The notes under the pieces were generated by a model. The model was not told the origin of the DNA and searched no databases. It saw nothing but the letters and a program-made list of their open reading frames with translations. Below, piece after piece: positions 12,279 to 34,022 of a stretch of DNA of 60,337 bases (position 1 is the first letter of the stretch; each line of letters starts with the position of its first letter). The translations under genes and the position numbers were made by a program. The DNA is taken from assembly GCA_026225275.1 (NCBI GenBank), contig JAMFSL010000148.1, positions 1 to 60,337 of the forward strand. The letters are read 5' to 3'. Origin of the DNA: Puia dinghuensis (lineage in GTDB: Bacteria > Bacteroidota > Bacteroidia > Chitinophagales > Chitinophagaceae).

Positions 12279-13349
12279 ATGCACTTATCCGGAAAGATCA
12301 TCGGATTCCATCAAAAATACCGGCCGGCGGCCCACCTGCTGTTCTGGTTGCTGTTGCTCCTGGTACAGCTCAGTTCCGCCAATTATTACAATGCGGATAG
12401 TATCCCATTCCGCGACAAACTGCTGGCCGTAGGCACCAACTTGCTGGCGCAGTTGCCCGCCGCCTATTTTTTAACCTACTTCATAGTCCCGCGTTACATC
12501 TACCGGCAAAATTACCTTGCGGCGATAGCCTGGTTCGCGGTTTGTGCCTATGTGATCTGCGTGCTTTCCCGCCTGGAGGTCATTCATGTCGAGGAGCCGT
12601 ACTTCGGCAAAAAACCTAATCCGCAGGAAACCTATACCAAGATTTTTACCGATCTGCCCAAGCTCATTTATGTTTATTTCTTTCGCATCTTTTCCGTTGC
12701 GTTTGTTTTTATGCTATGCAAGCTGCTGAAGGACCAGTTGGCCGTACAAAGGCGGACCTTGTCGTTGGAAAAGCAAAAGGTAGAGGCCGAATTGAAACTG
12801 CTGAAGACCCAGCTGAACCCCCATTTTTTGTTTAACACGTTAAATAACATCTATTCGCTTTCGTTAAGTCAATCGCCCGTCACCTCTACCGCTATCGGCA
12901 GGCTTTCGGAGATCCTCGACTATATCCTTTACCATTGCGATAGCCGGTATGTACCGCTGGCAGGCGAGATCAGGCTGCTGGAAAATTACATCGGGCTCGA
13001 AAAGCTGCGCTATGATGAACGGCTGACCGTCAACCTGGTTTGTCATGCCGACCCGCAGCCACAGATTGCACCGTTGCTCCTGCTCGCCATTGTCGAAAAT
13101 GCCTTTAAACATGGCGCCGGCAACGATTTAGGAAAGCCGGTGATCACGATTGAACTACAGGCCGACGAGCAACAATTTCTGTTTACCGTGACCAATCCCT
13201 TTCAGCCTAAAAGCCTGCTGAATCCAACAACCATCGGCCTGCCCAATTTAAAACAGCAACTGGAGTTAATCTATCCGGGGAAGCATACCTTAGTCCTTAC
13301 ACAAACCGAAACCCAATTTATCGTAAAACTAAGCATCGGCCTGTTATGA
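12279..13349 (+). CDS. LytS/YehU-type sensor histidine kinase
   Basis: A 356-residue protein. Four hydrophobic segments occupy about residues 18-150 (near 20-34, 52-70, 80-97 and 130-148). They are followed by a short coiled coil and the His_kinase (PF06580-type) block with His182 in LNPHFLFNTLNN. The ATP-binding part has Asn274 in LAIVENAFKHG and a later GLPNLKQQLELIY motif. This class phosphorylates LytTR regulators. The next gene is exactly that and overlaps by four bases (ATGA), so translation is coupled. No large extracellular sensor domain is present, so the signal is probably sensed in the membrane. Confidence 0.93.
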   Translation: MHLSGKIIGFHQKYRPAAHLLFWLLLLLVQLSSANYYNADSIPFRDKLLAVGTNLLAQLPAAYFLTYFIVPRYIYRQNYLAAIAWFAVCAYVICVLSRLEVIHVEEPYFGKKPNPQETYTKIFTDLPKLIYVYFFRIFSVAFVFMLCKLLKDQLAVQRRTLSLEKQKVEAELKLLKTQLNPHFLFNTLNNIYSLSLSQSPVTSTAIGRLSEILDYILYHCDSRYVPLAGEIRLLENYIGLEKLRYDERLTVNLVCHADPQPQIAPLLLLAIVENAFKHGAGNDLGKPVITIELQADEQQFLFTVTNPFQPKSLLNPTTIGLPNLKQQLELIYPGKHTLVLTQTETQFIVKLSIGLL

Positions 13350-14047
13350 AGATACGCTGCCTGATCGTGGATGATGAGCCGCTGGCCATACAGCTCCTGC
13401 AAAAACATATCGCACAACTAGACTTTTTCGAGGTCGCCGGTACCTGCCAAAATGCGGTCAAAGCGCTGGAGCTATTGAACCGGCAGCCGGTCGACCTGTT
13501 GTTCCTGGACATCAAAATGCCGCAACTCTCGGGTATCGACCTATTCAGGACGCTGCGTAACCCGCCCAAAACCATTCTGACCACCGCTTACCGGGAATTC
13601 GCCCTGGACGGTTTCGACCTCGGCGTAACCGATTATCTACTGAAGCCCATTACCTTTGACCGGTTTTTTAAAGCCGTGGAACGTTACCTTTCCGCCATTA
13701 ATTATGCCGCGCCGCAGGTCTTGTCCTCGTCCGAACCGCAGTTCATTTACCTGCGGTCAGGCCACAAGTATTTTAAAGTCAATACGCGTGACTTCCTGTA
13801 TGCCGAAAGCAGCAAGGATTATGTCCATGTACATACTACCTCGCAACTAATCACGTCCAAATACAAGATCAGCGAACTGGAAAAGGAGTTAGAGGGCAAG
13901 GGCTTCCTGCGCATCCATCGCAGCTTTATTGTTAACCTGCAACAGGTGACAGCATTTTCCGCCGGTGCAGTGGAGATCGGCAAAAACGAACTGCCCATCG
14001 GTGATAGTTACCGTGTCCTGGTAGCCAAAGCCATTCAAAGCCGTTAA
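13346..14047 (+). CDS. LytTR-family response regulator
   Basis: A 233-residue protein. The receiver has the acidic pair Asp9/Asp10, phosphoacceptor Asp55 (LLFLDIKMPQLSG) and Lys100 (YLLKP). The LytTR domain spans about 130-233 (FIYLRSGHKYFKVNTRDFLYAESSKDYVHVHT; RIHRSFIVNL). It overlaps the kinase gene by four bases and forms a standard LytS/LytTR pair. Likely targets include the divergent receptor/MerR unit, although I did not identify a LytTR repeat in the 165-bp gap. Confidence 0.94.
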   Translation: MKIRCLIVDDEPLAIQLLQKHIAQLDFFEVAGTCQNAVKALELLNRQPVDLLFLDIKMPQLSGIDLFRTLRNPPKTILTTAYREFALDGFDLGVTDYLLKPITFDRFFKAVERYLSAINYAAPQVLSSSEPQFIYLRSGHKYFKVNTRDFLYAESSKDYVHVHTTSQLITSKYKISELEKELEGKGFLRIHRSFIVNLQQVTAFSAGAVEIGKNELPIGDSYRVLVAKAIQSR

Positions 14048-29575: not shown

Positions 29576-31642
29576 TTAAGTTTTTCCATCCCGTTGAATC
29601 CCCTCCAAAATTTCAACGATTCCCTCATTCCTGACAATCGACATCCCGAGTCGCTCCCTTGAAATGCAGGGATTGATTTTATAGCTGTAAATGGGTACAT
29701 CGGCTTCCAGTCGGGATTCAAAACAACTAAAGAAAATATTTCCGGTGCTTTTCAATTCATCAGCTATTTCTACAATATGAGTCGAAATAAGGAATATACA
29801 ATGCTCTATTTTTGAAAAAGCAGATATGATCAACAAAGAGGCATCGGCGGCATCTTTCACGTTGGTTCCCCGGAACAATTCATCGAAGATCACCACCATC
29901 TTCCGCTTTTCCTTAATTTTTAATGCAACTTCCTTTATTCTCCTCACTTCACTATAAAAGTGACTATAACCCAAAGCGATGTTATCAGCCAAATTGATCG
30001 TAGTAACAAGCCCGTTGAATATAGTGGTTTCCATCATACTCGCCGGAACAGGAAAACCAATATGCGCCAAATGCAAGGATAATGCAAAAGACTTCATAAA
30101 GGTGGACTTGCCAGACATATTGGCACCAGTGATAAAACATAGATTATTATGCTCCCTGATTTCGAAGTCGTTGGGAACCGGCCGGGACAATAAAGGATTG
30201 AATAAGCCCACTATAGACACCTTTGAGGCTGCTGCTGCAGAATAATTGGGAAAACAAAACCCATATTTTCCAACTACTACGGCCGCGGCCTGGTAGACGT
30301 CTAACTCATACACCAGGTCTAACACGATGCGTAATAATGCCTTTTTCTGAACTCTGAAAAAATTGTCGCATTTTGCGAGCCCTGTTGAAGTGATAGGCTT
30401 ACTGCCGGATGAAAGAACAATTCCACTTATTTCCGGGGATAGGACAAGTTCATTCAACTTAATAACAAAATCATCCAATCTTGGCCCAGCCGGCTGTACA
30501 GTGATCATTGTCCCAAGGTCATAAAGATGTCTTAAGAGCTGCACTAAATTGGAGATACCCGAAGAAATGGTATAATGATTACCAGTCTGTTTCCACCTGT
30601 TCCGTATGGCGTAAAGCAGTGTGTCAAAGTGATTCTTTTTAAGAAGGGGTATCCCGGTGAAAAGATAACGTTCGATCATGTCCAGTTGTTGCTTGCTTAC
30701 CTTTAGGCTTATCGCTCGTTCATGAAAGAAACGAATAGCGTTTCTTCGGTCTTCCAGAATACGTAGGCTCGTGATCGGTGTTTTAAACATGCCCTCCAGC
30801 CTGTCGCCTCCTCCTGTGGTCTTTACATGATTGAAAAGATTGAAGGCCGGACCGCGTCTACCTTGATCGAATAGATCGATGTCCTTCAAAGTTTGTTTAT
30901 CTATCTCAAATTCGGTTTCCTGGCTAGCCGCGCCAGTGGTATTGAACTCATCGGAATGACGATTTCCGCTAAAAGTTCCTCGCGGCACATAATTGTAATC
31001 CTCTAGTTCCGTCAAATTGGAAACCTTTCTAGTCATCCCGCTATTCAATAGGATCATGCTATCGCTGACTTCGATAATTTTTTTAAAGACATGATCAGTT
31101 ATAATAACGCCCTTGCTATGTTTGTATTCCCTGATCAACTCGATAATCTTATCCTGATACAAAGGCTCAATTCCCGAAAAAGGTTCATCAAGTAGTACAA
31201 ACGTAACATTTAGGTTCAACAACAAAAATACTTCAAGATACCGCAGTTCGCCACCGGACAACTCTGCCACCCGCTTATTCTTGTATTGTCCGATCCGGTC
31301 ATCATTAAGTATTTTCGCTCTGCTCCCAGCCTCTATAAAAACCTTAATGATCTTTTTAACGCTTATGCTACTCGGCAAAAAACTTTGCCGAGGCAGATAA
31401 GCGATCAGATTACCTTGCCTGTATAAATACCTGTAGACGATGCCATCGACACGGATACTCTTATCTTCCGTATCCTCCGAACCAAAAATAATTTTGAGCA
31501 AAGTGGATTTCCCGCTACCGTTTTTTCCAAGTATGCCGACTACTTCCCCTGTCCTGCAGCTCAAAAAGACGTCCGATAATATCTTACGCTCTCCTATCGT
31601 TTTTATAATACTGTCGACTTCTAATGTATGCTCCTCAACCAT
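29576..31642 (-). CDS. ABC-transporter ATPase fused to MutS core and ATPase domains
   Basis: A 688-residue protein from the ATG at 31642. Residues about 5-215 form a complete ABC-transporter ATPase: Walker A GKNGSGKST (39-47), signature LSGGE (128-132), Walker B VLLDEP (149-154) and H-loop His184. After a polar linker, residues about 255-495 resemble the MutS core (LFDQGRRGPAFNLFNHVKTTGGGDRLEGMFKTPIT). The MutS ATPase follows: GANMSGKST (506-514), LADNIALGYSHFYSEV, VVIFDE (583-588) and STHIVEIADEL with His622. Mismatch-recognition domain I is absent, so repair is unlikely. Two different branches of the ABC superfamily sit in one chain. The start overlaps a small membrane-protein gene by 22 bp. 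Confidence 0.9.
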   Translation of the reverse strand: MVEEHTLEVDSIIKTIGERKILSDVFLSCRTGEVVGILGKNGSGKSTLLKIIFGSEDTEDKSIRVDGIVYRYLYRQGNLIAYLPRQSFLPSSISVKKIIKVFIEAGSRAKILNDDRIGQYKNKRVAELSGGELRYLEVFLLLNLNVTFVLLDEPFSGIEPLYQDKIIELIREYKHSKGVIITDHVFKKIIEVSDSMILLNSGMTRKVSNLTELEDYNYVPRGTFSGNRHSDEFNTTGAASQETEFEIDKQTLKDIDLFDQGRRGPAFNLFNHVKTTGGGDRLEGMFKTPITSLRILEDRRNAIRFFHERAISLKVSKQQLDMIERYLFTGIPLLKKNHFDTLLYAIRNRWKQTGNHYTISSGISNLVQLLRHLYDLGTMITVQPAGPRLDDFVIKLNELVLSPEISGIVLSSGSKPITSTGLAKCDNFFRVQKKALLRIVLDLVYELDVYQAAAVVVGKYGFCFPNYSAAAASKVSIVGLFNPLLSRPVPNDFEIREHNNLCFITGANMSGKSTFMKSFALSLHLAHIGFPVPASMMETTIFNGLVTTINLADNIALGYSHFYSEVRRIKEVALKIKEKRKMVVIFDELFRGTNVKDAADASLLIISAFSKIEHCIFLISTHIVEIADELKSTGNIFFSCFESRLEADVPIYSYKINPCISRERLGMSIVRNEGIVEILEGIQRDGKT

Positions 31643-31986
31643 AGAATCCTTGTTATGATGAATGTAATGACGGCAAGCAGAACTCCATTCAATATATAGG
31701 TACATAAGAGCAATTCCCGTCTGGAAAATCCCTTGTTAAAATAAAAGTAATATTGCTGCTTATACCTCAGTTCGTAAAGGTAAACCGACAAAAGATAGCC
31801 TCCAGTCATGGTTGATATCCAAAACGAAAGCAAATAATTATATCCGATGCCACCAACGACGGCGGCAGTAAGTAAAGAAAATACAATATTAAGGGTCTGG
31901 CTTTTTTTGTAGTAAACGGCAAAAATCCTAGTCTTTGTGATAAGACTTTTAAGCCGATTGTTATATTGCTCCGTTTTATCCTCCAT
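31621..31986 (-). CDS. Small membrane protein, candidate partner of the ABC-MutS protein
   Basis: A 121-residue protein from the ATG at 31986 (17 residues shorter than the longest frame, whose extra part is not conserved-looking). Hydrophobic segments lie at about 31-48, 50-71 and 92-114. Between them stands YLYELRYKQQYYFYFNKGFSRRELLLCTYILN, a cytosolic loop reminiscent of coupling loops in ABC-2-type permeases. The 3' end overlaps the ABC-MutS start by 22 bp, which favours coordinated production and physical association. The family is not recognised. A permease subunit or membrane anchor is inferred. Confidence 0.75.
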   Translation of the reverse strand: MEDKTEQYNNRLKSLITKTRIFAVYYKKSQTLNIVFSLLTAAVVGGIGYNYLLSFWISTMTGGYLLSVYLYELRYKQQYYFYFNKGFSRRELLLCTYILNGVLLAVITFIITRILWLRSIH

Positions 31987-32061: not shown

Positions 32062-33453
32062 CTAATTTTCAGATATCGGGATATAAATATCAAATGTAGC
32101 CCCCTTATTTAGCTGACTTGTTGCCGTAACGATGCCGTTGTGATTTTCGACAATTTTTTTTACGATCGCAAGCCCTATGCCAGTGCCTTCATATTTCTCT
32201 CTATTATGAAGTTTTTGAAATACCTCAAAGATACGATCTTTATATTCCGGCTCGAAGCCTATGCCGTTATCGGTAACGCTGATGTGGCAATAGCTTTTCG
32301 CACCCACCAATTTTGCATTGTTTAATTTATTTCCTTTTACGATTCTGCTCTTTATTATTATATGTGGCAGCCGTTTAGGGCTTGAAAATTTGAGTGAATT
32401 ACGTATGAGATTGTGCATGAGTTGGCGAAACTGAAAAGGGATGACGTTCATTTCGCACATCTCGGATGCTTCTATAATTGCATGTTTTTCTTCAATATTT
32501 TCTTTTAGTTCGGCTTTAACTTCCTCTATAATTGTATTTAAGTCTATTTTTTCAAACTTGCGTTCCGCAATATTCGTACGGGAATAAACAAGTAAATCTT
32601 CGATAAGTTGTCGCATTCGTCCAGCGGCGGTTTGTATCCGATAAAAATAGTCTTTTCCAGTGTCGGATAGGTTTTCAGTTTCTTTTTCAAGAATTCGCCC
32701 TGCTAAAGTTTGTATTTTACGTAAGGGTTCCTGCAAATCATGGCTTGATATATAATTGAATGCAAGAAGTTCATTGTTAATAATGACTAATTCCTCGGCC
32801 CGCTTTCCTTTCTCTTCGTTTTGAAAGGCCAGCTCTTTATTAGCAATAATTAGCTCTGCTGCACGCTTTTCTTTCTCCCCATTCTGAAAGGTAAGTTCCT
32901 GGTTAGCAATGAACAACTCTGCTGCCCGCTTTTCCTTCTCATCGTTTTGGAAAACGAGCTCTTTGTTCGCAATACCCAACTCGGCTGCTCGCTTTTCCTT
33001 TTCATTGTTTTGAAAAATGAGTTCTATATTAGCGATGCCTAATTCAGCCGCTCGTTTCTCCTTCTCCTCATTTTGAAAGACAAGTTCTATGTTCGCAATG
33101 CCTAATTCCACTGCCCGCTTTTCTTTCTCTCCATCTTCAAAAGCAAGTTCTATATTAGCAATGCCCAATTCTGCTGCTCGCTTTCCTTTCTCTTCTTTCT
33201 GGAACGCGAGTTCTATATTAGCAATTCCTAGCTCCGCTGCCCGCTTTCCTTTCTCCTCGTCTTGAAAGGCAAGTGCAATATTAGCAATGCCCAATTCTGC
33301 TGCCCTTTTTCCTCGCTCATCTTTTTGAAAGGAAAGTTCATTTCGGGCCGCGATAAGTCCTGCTAATAGCTTTCTATTCTCCTCCTTTTCAAAACATAGT
33401 TCTTCGCGAACTAGTATCAACTCTTCCTCAAAGGATTTATTTGATATAGCCAT
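32062..33453 (-). CDS. Histidine kinase with long tandem-repeat coiled coil
   Basis: A 463-residue protein without membrane segments. Residues about 25-234 consist of a degenerate unit plus nine clear copies of a 21-residue unit EKxKRAAELGIANxELxFQNE. The HisKA-type helix follows with His238 (ISSHDLQEPLRKIQTLAGRI). The HATPase has an N box (LMHNLIRNSLKFSS), DNGIGF and GTGIGLAIVKKIVENHNG. No PAS, GAF or REC domain is present, so the signal must come through the coiled coil or a partner. The upstream single-domain regulator, 81 bp away on the same strand, is the likely phosphoacceptor. The membrane-protein gene follows after 75 bp. Confidence 0.92.
   Translation of the reverse strand: MAISNKSFEEELILVREELCFEKEENRKLLAGLIAARNELSFQKDERGKRAAELGIANIALAFQDEEKGKRAAELGIANIELAFQKEEKGKRAAELGIANIELAFEDGEKEKRAVELGIANIELVFQNEEKEKRAAELGIANIELIFQNNEKEKRAAELGIANKELVFQNDEKEKRAAELFIANQELTFQNGEKEKRAAELIIANKELAFQNEEKGKRAEELVIINNELLAFNYISSHDLQEPLRKIQTLAGRILEKETENLSDTGKDYFYRIQTAAGRMRQLIEDLLVYSRTNIAERKFEKIDLNTIIEEVKAELKENIEEKHAIIEASEMCEMNVIPFQFRQLMHNLIRNSLKFSSPKRLPHIIIKSRIVKGNKLNNAKLVGAKSYCHISVTDNGIGFEPEYKDRIFEVFQKLHNREKYEGTGIGLAIVKKIVENHNGIVTATSQLNKGATFDIYIPISEN
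32752..33318 (-). repeat. Nine 63-bp tandem repeats inside the kinase gene
   Basis: Each 63-bp unit encodes 21 residues, exactly three heptads, so copy-number change would preserve both reading frame and coiled-coil register. Core KRAAELGIAN is kept in most copies; the last copies diverge (LFIANQ, LIIANK, LVIINN). A weaker tenth unit lies just upstream (33319-33381). Such arrays can expand or contract by recombination. Confidence 0.9.
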
Positions 33454-33534: not shown

Positions 33535-34011
33535 TCAAATGGTTTCCGGTTTGATGAAATAACTTTCGCCCGTTAGAATAAAATTATTTTTTGTTCTTTG
33601 TAAACTAGTCTCTTGCATTATGAGGGTCAGCGAATAATGGATTACTCTTTTGAATTTTAAGAAATCGGACGGCTTTCGAATAAAATATTGAGCACCGTTT
33701 TGATATAAACGGTCCATTACATCTTGTTCAGAGGAGGTGGAATACATAATTGTAGGAAGCGCCTTCAATTTATCGTTAAACATTATCTCCTTTAAACATT
33801 CAAAACCATTTTTTCGAGGCATATTTAAATCTAGGAAAAGGACATGGGGAAGTCGGCTTGTGTTTTTTAGAAGCCACTTCATTAGTTGATCGCCGTCATT
33901 CACAATTGTAAGGCGCGTGGATAGTGACAGTTCCTCCAATGCTTCTTTGAAAAAGAGGCAATCATCTGCGTCGTCGTCGGCAAGTAACACTCGAAGTTCG
34001 TTGGCAGCCAT
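33535..34011 (-). CDS. Single-domain response regulator (Rcp1-like)
   Basis: A 158-residue protein from the ATG at 34011 (MAANELRVLLADDDADD). The acidic cluster lies at about 12-17, phosphoacceptor Asp61 in VLFLDLNMPRKNG, the Thr/Ser switch in IMYSTSS and Lys113 in FIRKP. There is no DNA-binding or enzymatic output; about 30 extra C-terminal residues follow. Such regulators pair with phytochrome-like or SSHDLQEP-type kinases, and one of these is encoded next. It probably passes phosphate to, or senses phosphate from, that kinase. A -7 box stands three bases before the start. Confidence 0.92.
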   Translation of the reverse strand: MAANELRVLLADDDADDCLFFKEALEELSLSTRLTIVNDGDQLMKWLLKNTSRLPHVLFLDLNMPRKNGFECLKEIMFNDKLKALPTIMYSTSSEQDVMDRLYQNGAQYFIRKPSDFLKFKRVIHYSLTLIMQETSLQRTKNNFILTGESYFIKPETI

Positions 34012-34014
34012 ATA

Positions 34015-34022
34015 CAAAATTA
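34015..34022 (-). promoter_or_regulatory. Bacteroidota -7 box TAATTTTG
   Basis: Exact TAnnTTTG on the minus strand, three bases before the ATG of the response regulator. I see no convincing TTG at the -33 distance, so the promoter is tentative. It would give a leaderless transcript. Confidence 0.4.

Follow-up and report, generated by a model that had tools for sequence, protein, structure and literature searches.

What might a cell do with a protein that unites an ATP-binding cassette (ABC) transporter ATPase and a MutS core in one chain? The question is raised by a stretch of 60,337 nucleotides from Puia dinghuensis (contig JAMFSL010000148.1, assembly GCA_026225275.1; the whole stretch is hereafter called the window), whose reverse strand encodes such a fusion. 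A gene for a small membrane protein lies directly upstream and overlaps the fusion gene by 22 bases (Table 1). An earlier note, made from the sequence alone, had pointed to the fusion and regarded it as a membrane- or DNA-associated machine, not a repair enzyme. We put the probability at about one half that the two genes together specify a minimal ABC machine of the inner membrane, into which a second ATPase dimer, of the MutS type, is built as co-ATPase or as gate or regulator. We favour this reading because the membrane partner gene is constant, the fusion has been kept, and the same wider MutS branch has a separate link to exporters; these comparisons suggest that the MutS branch of the fusion may work with membrane transporters, not in DNA repair.

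The fusion lies in a mechanical open reading frame on the reverse strand (29576-31705, 709 amino acids) that has no internal stop. Profile searches of both halves, suggested in the earlier note as a check, place ABC_tran (E=3.8e-22, 79.8 bits against a Pfam cut-off of 25) and MutS_V (E=9.8e-27, 94.6 bits against 30.2; 95.4 bits with residues 223-688 alone) well over their cut-offs, and MutS_III (E=2.4e-4) under its own. The N-terminus is an ABC transporter nucleotide-binding domain, in which the Walker A motif (residues 39-47, GKNGSGKST), LSGGE, the Walker B motif VLLDEP and the H-loop TDH can be read. The MutS half carries a Walker A motif at residues 506-514, VVIFDEL and STH, and both nucleotide-binding sets appear intact, as the earlier note had described. 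The protein belongs to the MutS superfamily core, with domain V identified by profile and domain III by the predicted model, which resembles MutS cores from residue ~245 onward; whole-model structure searches returned MutS-type entries only among the matches listed. Model confidence in the ABC domain is 80-96 by blocks, except for residues 11-30 at 64-75. Among what could undo the fusion, the earlier note had named a stop or frameshift overlooked between residues 215 and 255; this is excluded, as is an assembly artefact uniting two genes, for which we see practically no chance: the identical architecture recurs in three additional genomes.

The MutS domain that recognises mismatches is missing. 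Among the ten Pfam families detected at E<=1 in residues 223-688 there is no MutS_I (the mismatch-recognition domain, whose absence the earlier note had claimed), MutS_II, MutS_IV or Smr; the gap between the ABC domain and domain III is a linker of only ~22 residues, and the chain stops after domain V. Residues 354-460 of the predicted model, judged against the fold of the MutS clamp (domain IV, set between the lever helices), contain helices only, and a diverged clamp might escape both the profile and the model test. The fusion also scores far under the NCBIfam cut-offs for MutS1 (PRK05399, 117.2 bits against 480; mutS1, 101.6 against 641.7) and MutS2 (76.1 bits against 400), so that the view of it as something other than a classical repair enzyme holds. 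Unlike MutS/MSH proteins and MutS2, it has an N-terminal ABC ATPase and a membrane-protein partner gene. KamC, the ATPase of a lysine 5,6-aminomutase reactivase (NF052383) and thus, by model name, a MutS relative acting on a protein, shares an ATPase core of the MutS type. Its model scores 103.2 bits over residues 458-649 of the 709-residue frame, far below the cut-off of 300 bits, and KamC lacks the ABC half. The title of a study of MutS2 on collided disomes likewise indicates a precedent for a MutS-type ATPase with a target other than DNA.

For the ABC half, the nearest named model is LptB (TIGR04406, E=4e-29, 101.6 bits against a cut-off of 240). DEPFxGxxP and ITDH features can be read in the sequence, which we take to resemble those of LptB. 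The fusion differs from the LptB system in being joined to MutS and in its partner, a membrane protein of ~90-150 residues in place of LptF/LptG. In the predicted model of the window's partner protein (mean predicted local distance difference test score, pLDDT, 78.1, from only 4 alignment rows), a long helix and more hydrophobic helices are followed by a short helix at QQYYFYFNK and a final long helix, an order that may resemble membrane helices with a coupling helix set between two of them.

A gene of this kind stands directly upstream of the ABC gene in 31/31 loci of this ABC type that were read, namely four fused (window, L067, L068, L069) and 27 standalone, four duplicate rows of the same places having been excluded. 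Distant partners were recognised by eye from size, hydrophobicity, position and a YxYxNxG-like segment; the partner of L144 was missed by the script and then identified by eye in L147, as were those in L153-L155, and the partner frames in L147 and L153-L155 overlap a longer ABC frame. The membrane protein and the ABC ATPase are therefore a two-gene unit that exists also without MutS. With 20 candidates scored per genome, this ABC type was detected at E<=1e-35 in 16/147 sampled genomes of the family, in one copy each, the window included. Exactly one copy was present in 11 of 14 genomes tested and none in the other three; in the three fused genomes tested, the fused copy is the sole one. One standalone unit (L146 9342-10285, genome G171) forms a long branch among the fused ABC domains, and its membrane protein is by eye closer to the fused type. 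Of the two associations named in the earlier note, membrane or DNA, the evidence favours the first: a predicted membrane protein is the constant neighbour.

A survey of fused and split homologues, likewise suggested in the earlier note, yielded the 27 standalone ABC loci, solo MutS relatives and three further fused genes, in genome G032 (L067, 54% identity to the window), a metagenome-assembled genome (MAG) labelled Bacteroidales (L068, 52%) and another Puia dinghuensis genome, G009 (L069, 51%). Each of the three is preceded by an overlapping small membrane-protein gene with a coupling-helix-like motif. The fusion is found in 3/33 genomes of the genus and, with only two candidates scored per genome, in 2/394 sampled family genomes at E<=1e-85 (G032 is not among these matches) and solely in the window's own genome among 396 order and 395 phylum genomes at E<=1e-95. 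A species-level collection, baited with two short peptide patterns, held 3 fused genes among 23 loci with a relative. A plasmid-borne element was considered and set aside, as no match was found at E<=1e-40 in a plasmid collection from which records near the window's genome were possibly excluded.

Relatives of the MutS half, which is part of a Bacteroidota branch, occur in three settings: as pairs, as single-copy rows of the genus and as other solo genes. We collected 37 pair loci (tandem genes or double-length frames) from 11 genomes or records, comprising 35 of the 50 loci in one set together with L080 and L081. They were chosen by MutS similarity and not by transporter genes. In all 37, a permease of the ABC2_membrane/ABC_transp_aux type, assigned by likeness to L057, whose domains were tested, is the next gene upstream and has the same orientation. 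Of the 37, 35 also have a labelled GldA-like ATPase (the exceptions are L044, which starts at a contig end, and L129), and 31 have a SusC- or SusD-like gene upstream. These cassettes of GldA-GldF-GldG type thus place MutS cores of the fusion's wider branch beside an ABC exporter, but their ABC ATPase is GldA-like and unfused, their permease is of ~790 residues, and MutS comes as an A/B pair. A frame of ~370-380 residues separates the two MutS genes in L091, L098 and L102, and both cores lie within one frame in four loci. First members group on one side of a branch with support 0, second members on another with 96, a placement that fits an old heterodimer. Cassette copies reach 11 in one genome (G007), and the cassette of L058 is followed by a gene for a DUF4953 Met-zincin. 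Permease matches equal pair loci in G000 (4, 4), G017 (2, 2) and G047 (4, 4), and both are zero in G009 and G031; where permeases are in excess in G002 (10 for 9 loci) and G007 (14 for 11), the extra ones sit in the same loci.

The permease is absent from all twelve single-copy rows of the genus; in one of them (L119), an ABC-type frame follows two genes downstream. In L047, L118, L119 and L122, this single-copy gene, at ~30% identity to the fusion, neighbours what is presumably a dihydroorotase-like gene, and in L047 and L122 also one that we take to be ComM-like. The other solo relatives come from Bacteroidales, Flavobacteriaceae and Sphingobacteriaceae; in L074-L076, L078 and L079, a Bacteroidales MutS-core gene lies beside genes that we assume, from their sequence, to serve arginine biosynthesis. 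One relative (L168 7392-8770, genome G1123) is split into two overlapping frames of 208 and 257 residues, apparently broken or frameshifted.

How the fusion arose can be read from a tree of 100 MutS cores, made with a quick method and no bootstrap. The four fused cores and two solo rows (G017/L070 and G022/L071) form one group with a support of 96 in the Shimodaira-Hasegawa-like approximate likelihood ratio test (SH-aLRT), and the two solos are nested in it, on separate branches (97 and 99). By itself the tree requires three changes of any kind, and its simplest reading, one fusion with two later losses of the ABC half, fits this topology. Loss is directly supported for G017 because the DNA upstream of the MutS gene there still matches parts of the membrane-protein gene of G032 (start region, middle and end) and the first ABC codons (three blastn segments, ~75% over 44-55 bases, E of 1e-5 to 6e-4 for this stretch pair); no comparable relic was found in the frames read from G022, where a standalone copy of this ABC type is present. 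Between the MutS parts of G017 and G032, the nonsynonymous rate dN is 0.15 and the synonymous rate dS 1.53 (Nei-Gojobori 1986 method, near saturation), a ratio of ~0.10. The ABC tree is less clear on this history: bootstrap support for a single group of fused ABC domains is only 58%, and the standalone row L145, on a long branch, falls among them.

From these data we infer a dimer arrangement, a docking site and a coupling of the two ATPases. Two small membrane proteins would form the membrane part and dock, through the YYFYxNxGxSR segment, on a dimer of ABC domains. Two MutS cores, tethered by the flexible linker, would form a second, MutS-type ATPase dimer just beneath the membrane. Its ATP-driven opening and closing may control the transporter or handle the cytoplasmic client of the transporter, as MutS2 handles ribosomes; mismatch repair would not be its job. 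A bolder reading, that a Bacteroidota MutS branch left DNA repair and twice became the second motor of ABC-2-like exporters, as A/B heterodimers in the SusCD-GldA-permease cassettes and as the ABC-MutS fusion on a minimal membrane protein, is tentative, and we hold it to be somewhat less probable than its negation. On that reading the fusion would serve as a 'Rosetta stone' for a transport device whose ABC exporter is powered or gated by a clamp of the MutS type.

A number of observations weigh against a membrane machine with two coupled motors. For the partner protein, Pfam gives no match over cut-off and the PDB none by fold at E<=0.001, so that transport is a putative activity, and its best sequence match is no better than E=0.64. 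The 37 pair loci are related copies, not independent events, and in G024, 32 permease matches face 10 paired MutS cores, making the link between pair and exporter one-way; either this genome has a large set of exporter cassettes that lack MutS, or its assembly is mixed (contamination 6%). G017 and G022 retain the MutS half with intact catalytic residues and without the ABC half, and a search of G017 for this ABC type at E<=1e-25 found no further copy; the MutS core can therefore dispense with the transporter there. Both halves occur, on different contigs, in Aureivirga sp. CE67 (G1072) and in a Mucilaginibacter MAG (G1073), as a standalone ABC gene (42-43% identity) and a solo MutS relative (41-42%). 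Among 151 genomes around G1073, the ABC domain was matched in 42, the MutS core in 37 and both in 14, against 10.3 expected (P=0.09); these counts are lower bounds, sorted by matched query part at E<=1e-45 with seven candidates scored per genome. The halves were side by side in 0/14 loci read around G1073, and reading the standalone ABC and the solo MutS loci likewise turned up no adjacent split halves. The split forms lend no clear support to a shared function, which speaks against tight coupling.

A rival reading is that two unrelated ATPases were fused by chance and would share only expression and stoichiometry while each half keeps its own job, the MutS half perhaps with a protein or RNA client. 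The flexible linker, the two losses read from the tree, in which the ABC half went and the MutS half stayed, the lack of adjacent halves in any split genome read and a co-occurrence near chance all suit such a tether. Yet the fusion persists in four genomes, across a divergence to 51-54% identity with the window, and exporters are linked a second time to the wider MutS branch, in all 37 pair loci; we consider mere tethering rather unlikely, though the strongest of the alternatives. The core might otherwise contact DNA as a membrane-recruited damage or recombination factor, together with repair enzymes such as the product of an AlkB-type dioxygenase gene, which lies upstream in G032, G009 and G017 and ~9 kb upstream in G022. 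All four cases come from one genus, where shared gene order can explain them, and no such gene was found in the 60-kb window or the 10-kb L068 contig; a repair operon with AlkB was rejected on these grounds. With no sign of MutS domains I, II or IV either, we find a DNA-directed role improbable. Slightly less probable still is an ATPase for stalled ribosomes, with a MutS2-like core and an ABC-F-like domain: the transporter model LptB scores higher, the ABC_tran stretch is single, Smr is missing, and the membrane partner is constant. Compared with all of these, a membrane machine with a MutS-type second ATPase remains our preferred account.

The surroundings of the gene offered a further candidate partner. 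LytTR/kinase genes are convergent neighbours in G009, G017 and G022, but as a partner they were rejected, since they neither adjoin the window gene (a LytS/LytTR-like pair lies ~15 kb off, at 12279-14047) nor occur in L068. A sensor histidine kinase gene of the window, at 32062-33453 and with a repeat in it, adjoins a response-regulator gene at 33535-34017. A role in defence was also weighed: 42 PADLOC families matched at E<=0.01, the best being mad3 (8.4e-24; best stretch, residues 118-219), and the best 25 of the 42 have their strongest stretches on parts of one or other ATPase half.

Table 1. Positions of the fusion gene, its parts and the related or neighbouring features.
Feature	Position	Strand	Basis or remarks
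ABC-MutS fusion gene, 688 aa (amino acids)	window 29576..31642	(-)	start at 31642 agrees with homologue starts
LptB-like ABC ATPase domain, N-terminal, residues 1-222	window 30977..31642	(-)	ABC_tran, LptB model TIGR04406
Low-confidence linker, residues 226-241	window 30920..30967	(-)	pLDDT < 50
MutS core (helical domain III plus ATPase domain V), residues 245-688	window 29579..30910	(-)	profiles, predicted model
Small membrane protein, 121 aa, hydrophobic helices, short YYFYFNKGFSRREL segment ahead of last helix	window 31621..31986	(-)	predicted
Sensor histidine kinase gene	window 32062-33453	(-)	~8.6 copies of a 63-base (21-aa) repeat in the N-terminal half, 32798-33339
DNA relic of membrane-protein gene and first ABC codons	L070 4820-5010 (G017)		upstream of MutS-only gene; blastn against G032
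Cassette SusC-SusD-(other genes)-GldA-like ATPase-ABC2/ABC_transp_aux permease-MutS A-MutS B	L043-L046, L057, L058, L080, L081, L090-L099, L101-L109, L111-L115, L125-L129		
AlkB-type genes, four genomes of the genus	L039 4597-5202, L040 12149-12808, L041 3560-4135, L071 201-836		PF13532 for L039

The earlier note knew of no described system with this fusion, and we too found neither the ABC-MutS fusion nor MutS pairs in SusCD-exporter cassettes in titles and abstract openings of the open-access literature, which is weak evidence of absence, the subscription literature lying largely outside that scope. The architecture is real, conserved and, as far as searched, undescribed, and it is built of two known kinds of ATPase. 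Beyond what was noted earlier, its ABC part belongs to a wider two-gene unit, its MutS part to an exporter-linked branch, and two relatives do without the ABC half. There is a fair chance that a larger new theme lies behind the fusion, which would be its visible end. These Bacteroidota have many MutS relatives that lack mismatch domains, with up to 23 matches in one genome, and the name MutS suggests repair. Together, the fusion and the exporter linkage of the pairs provide an alternative open to test, in which ATPases of the MutS type take part in membrane transport. If true, this would change the annotation of a large family and mean that two branches of the ABC ATPase superfamily are combined in one machine.
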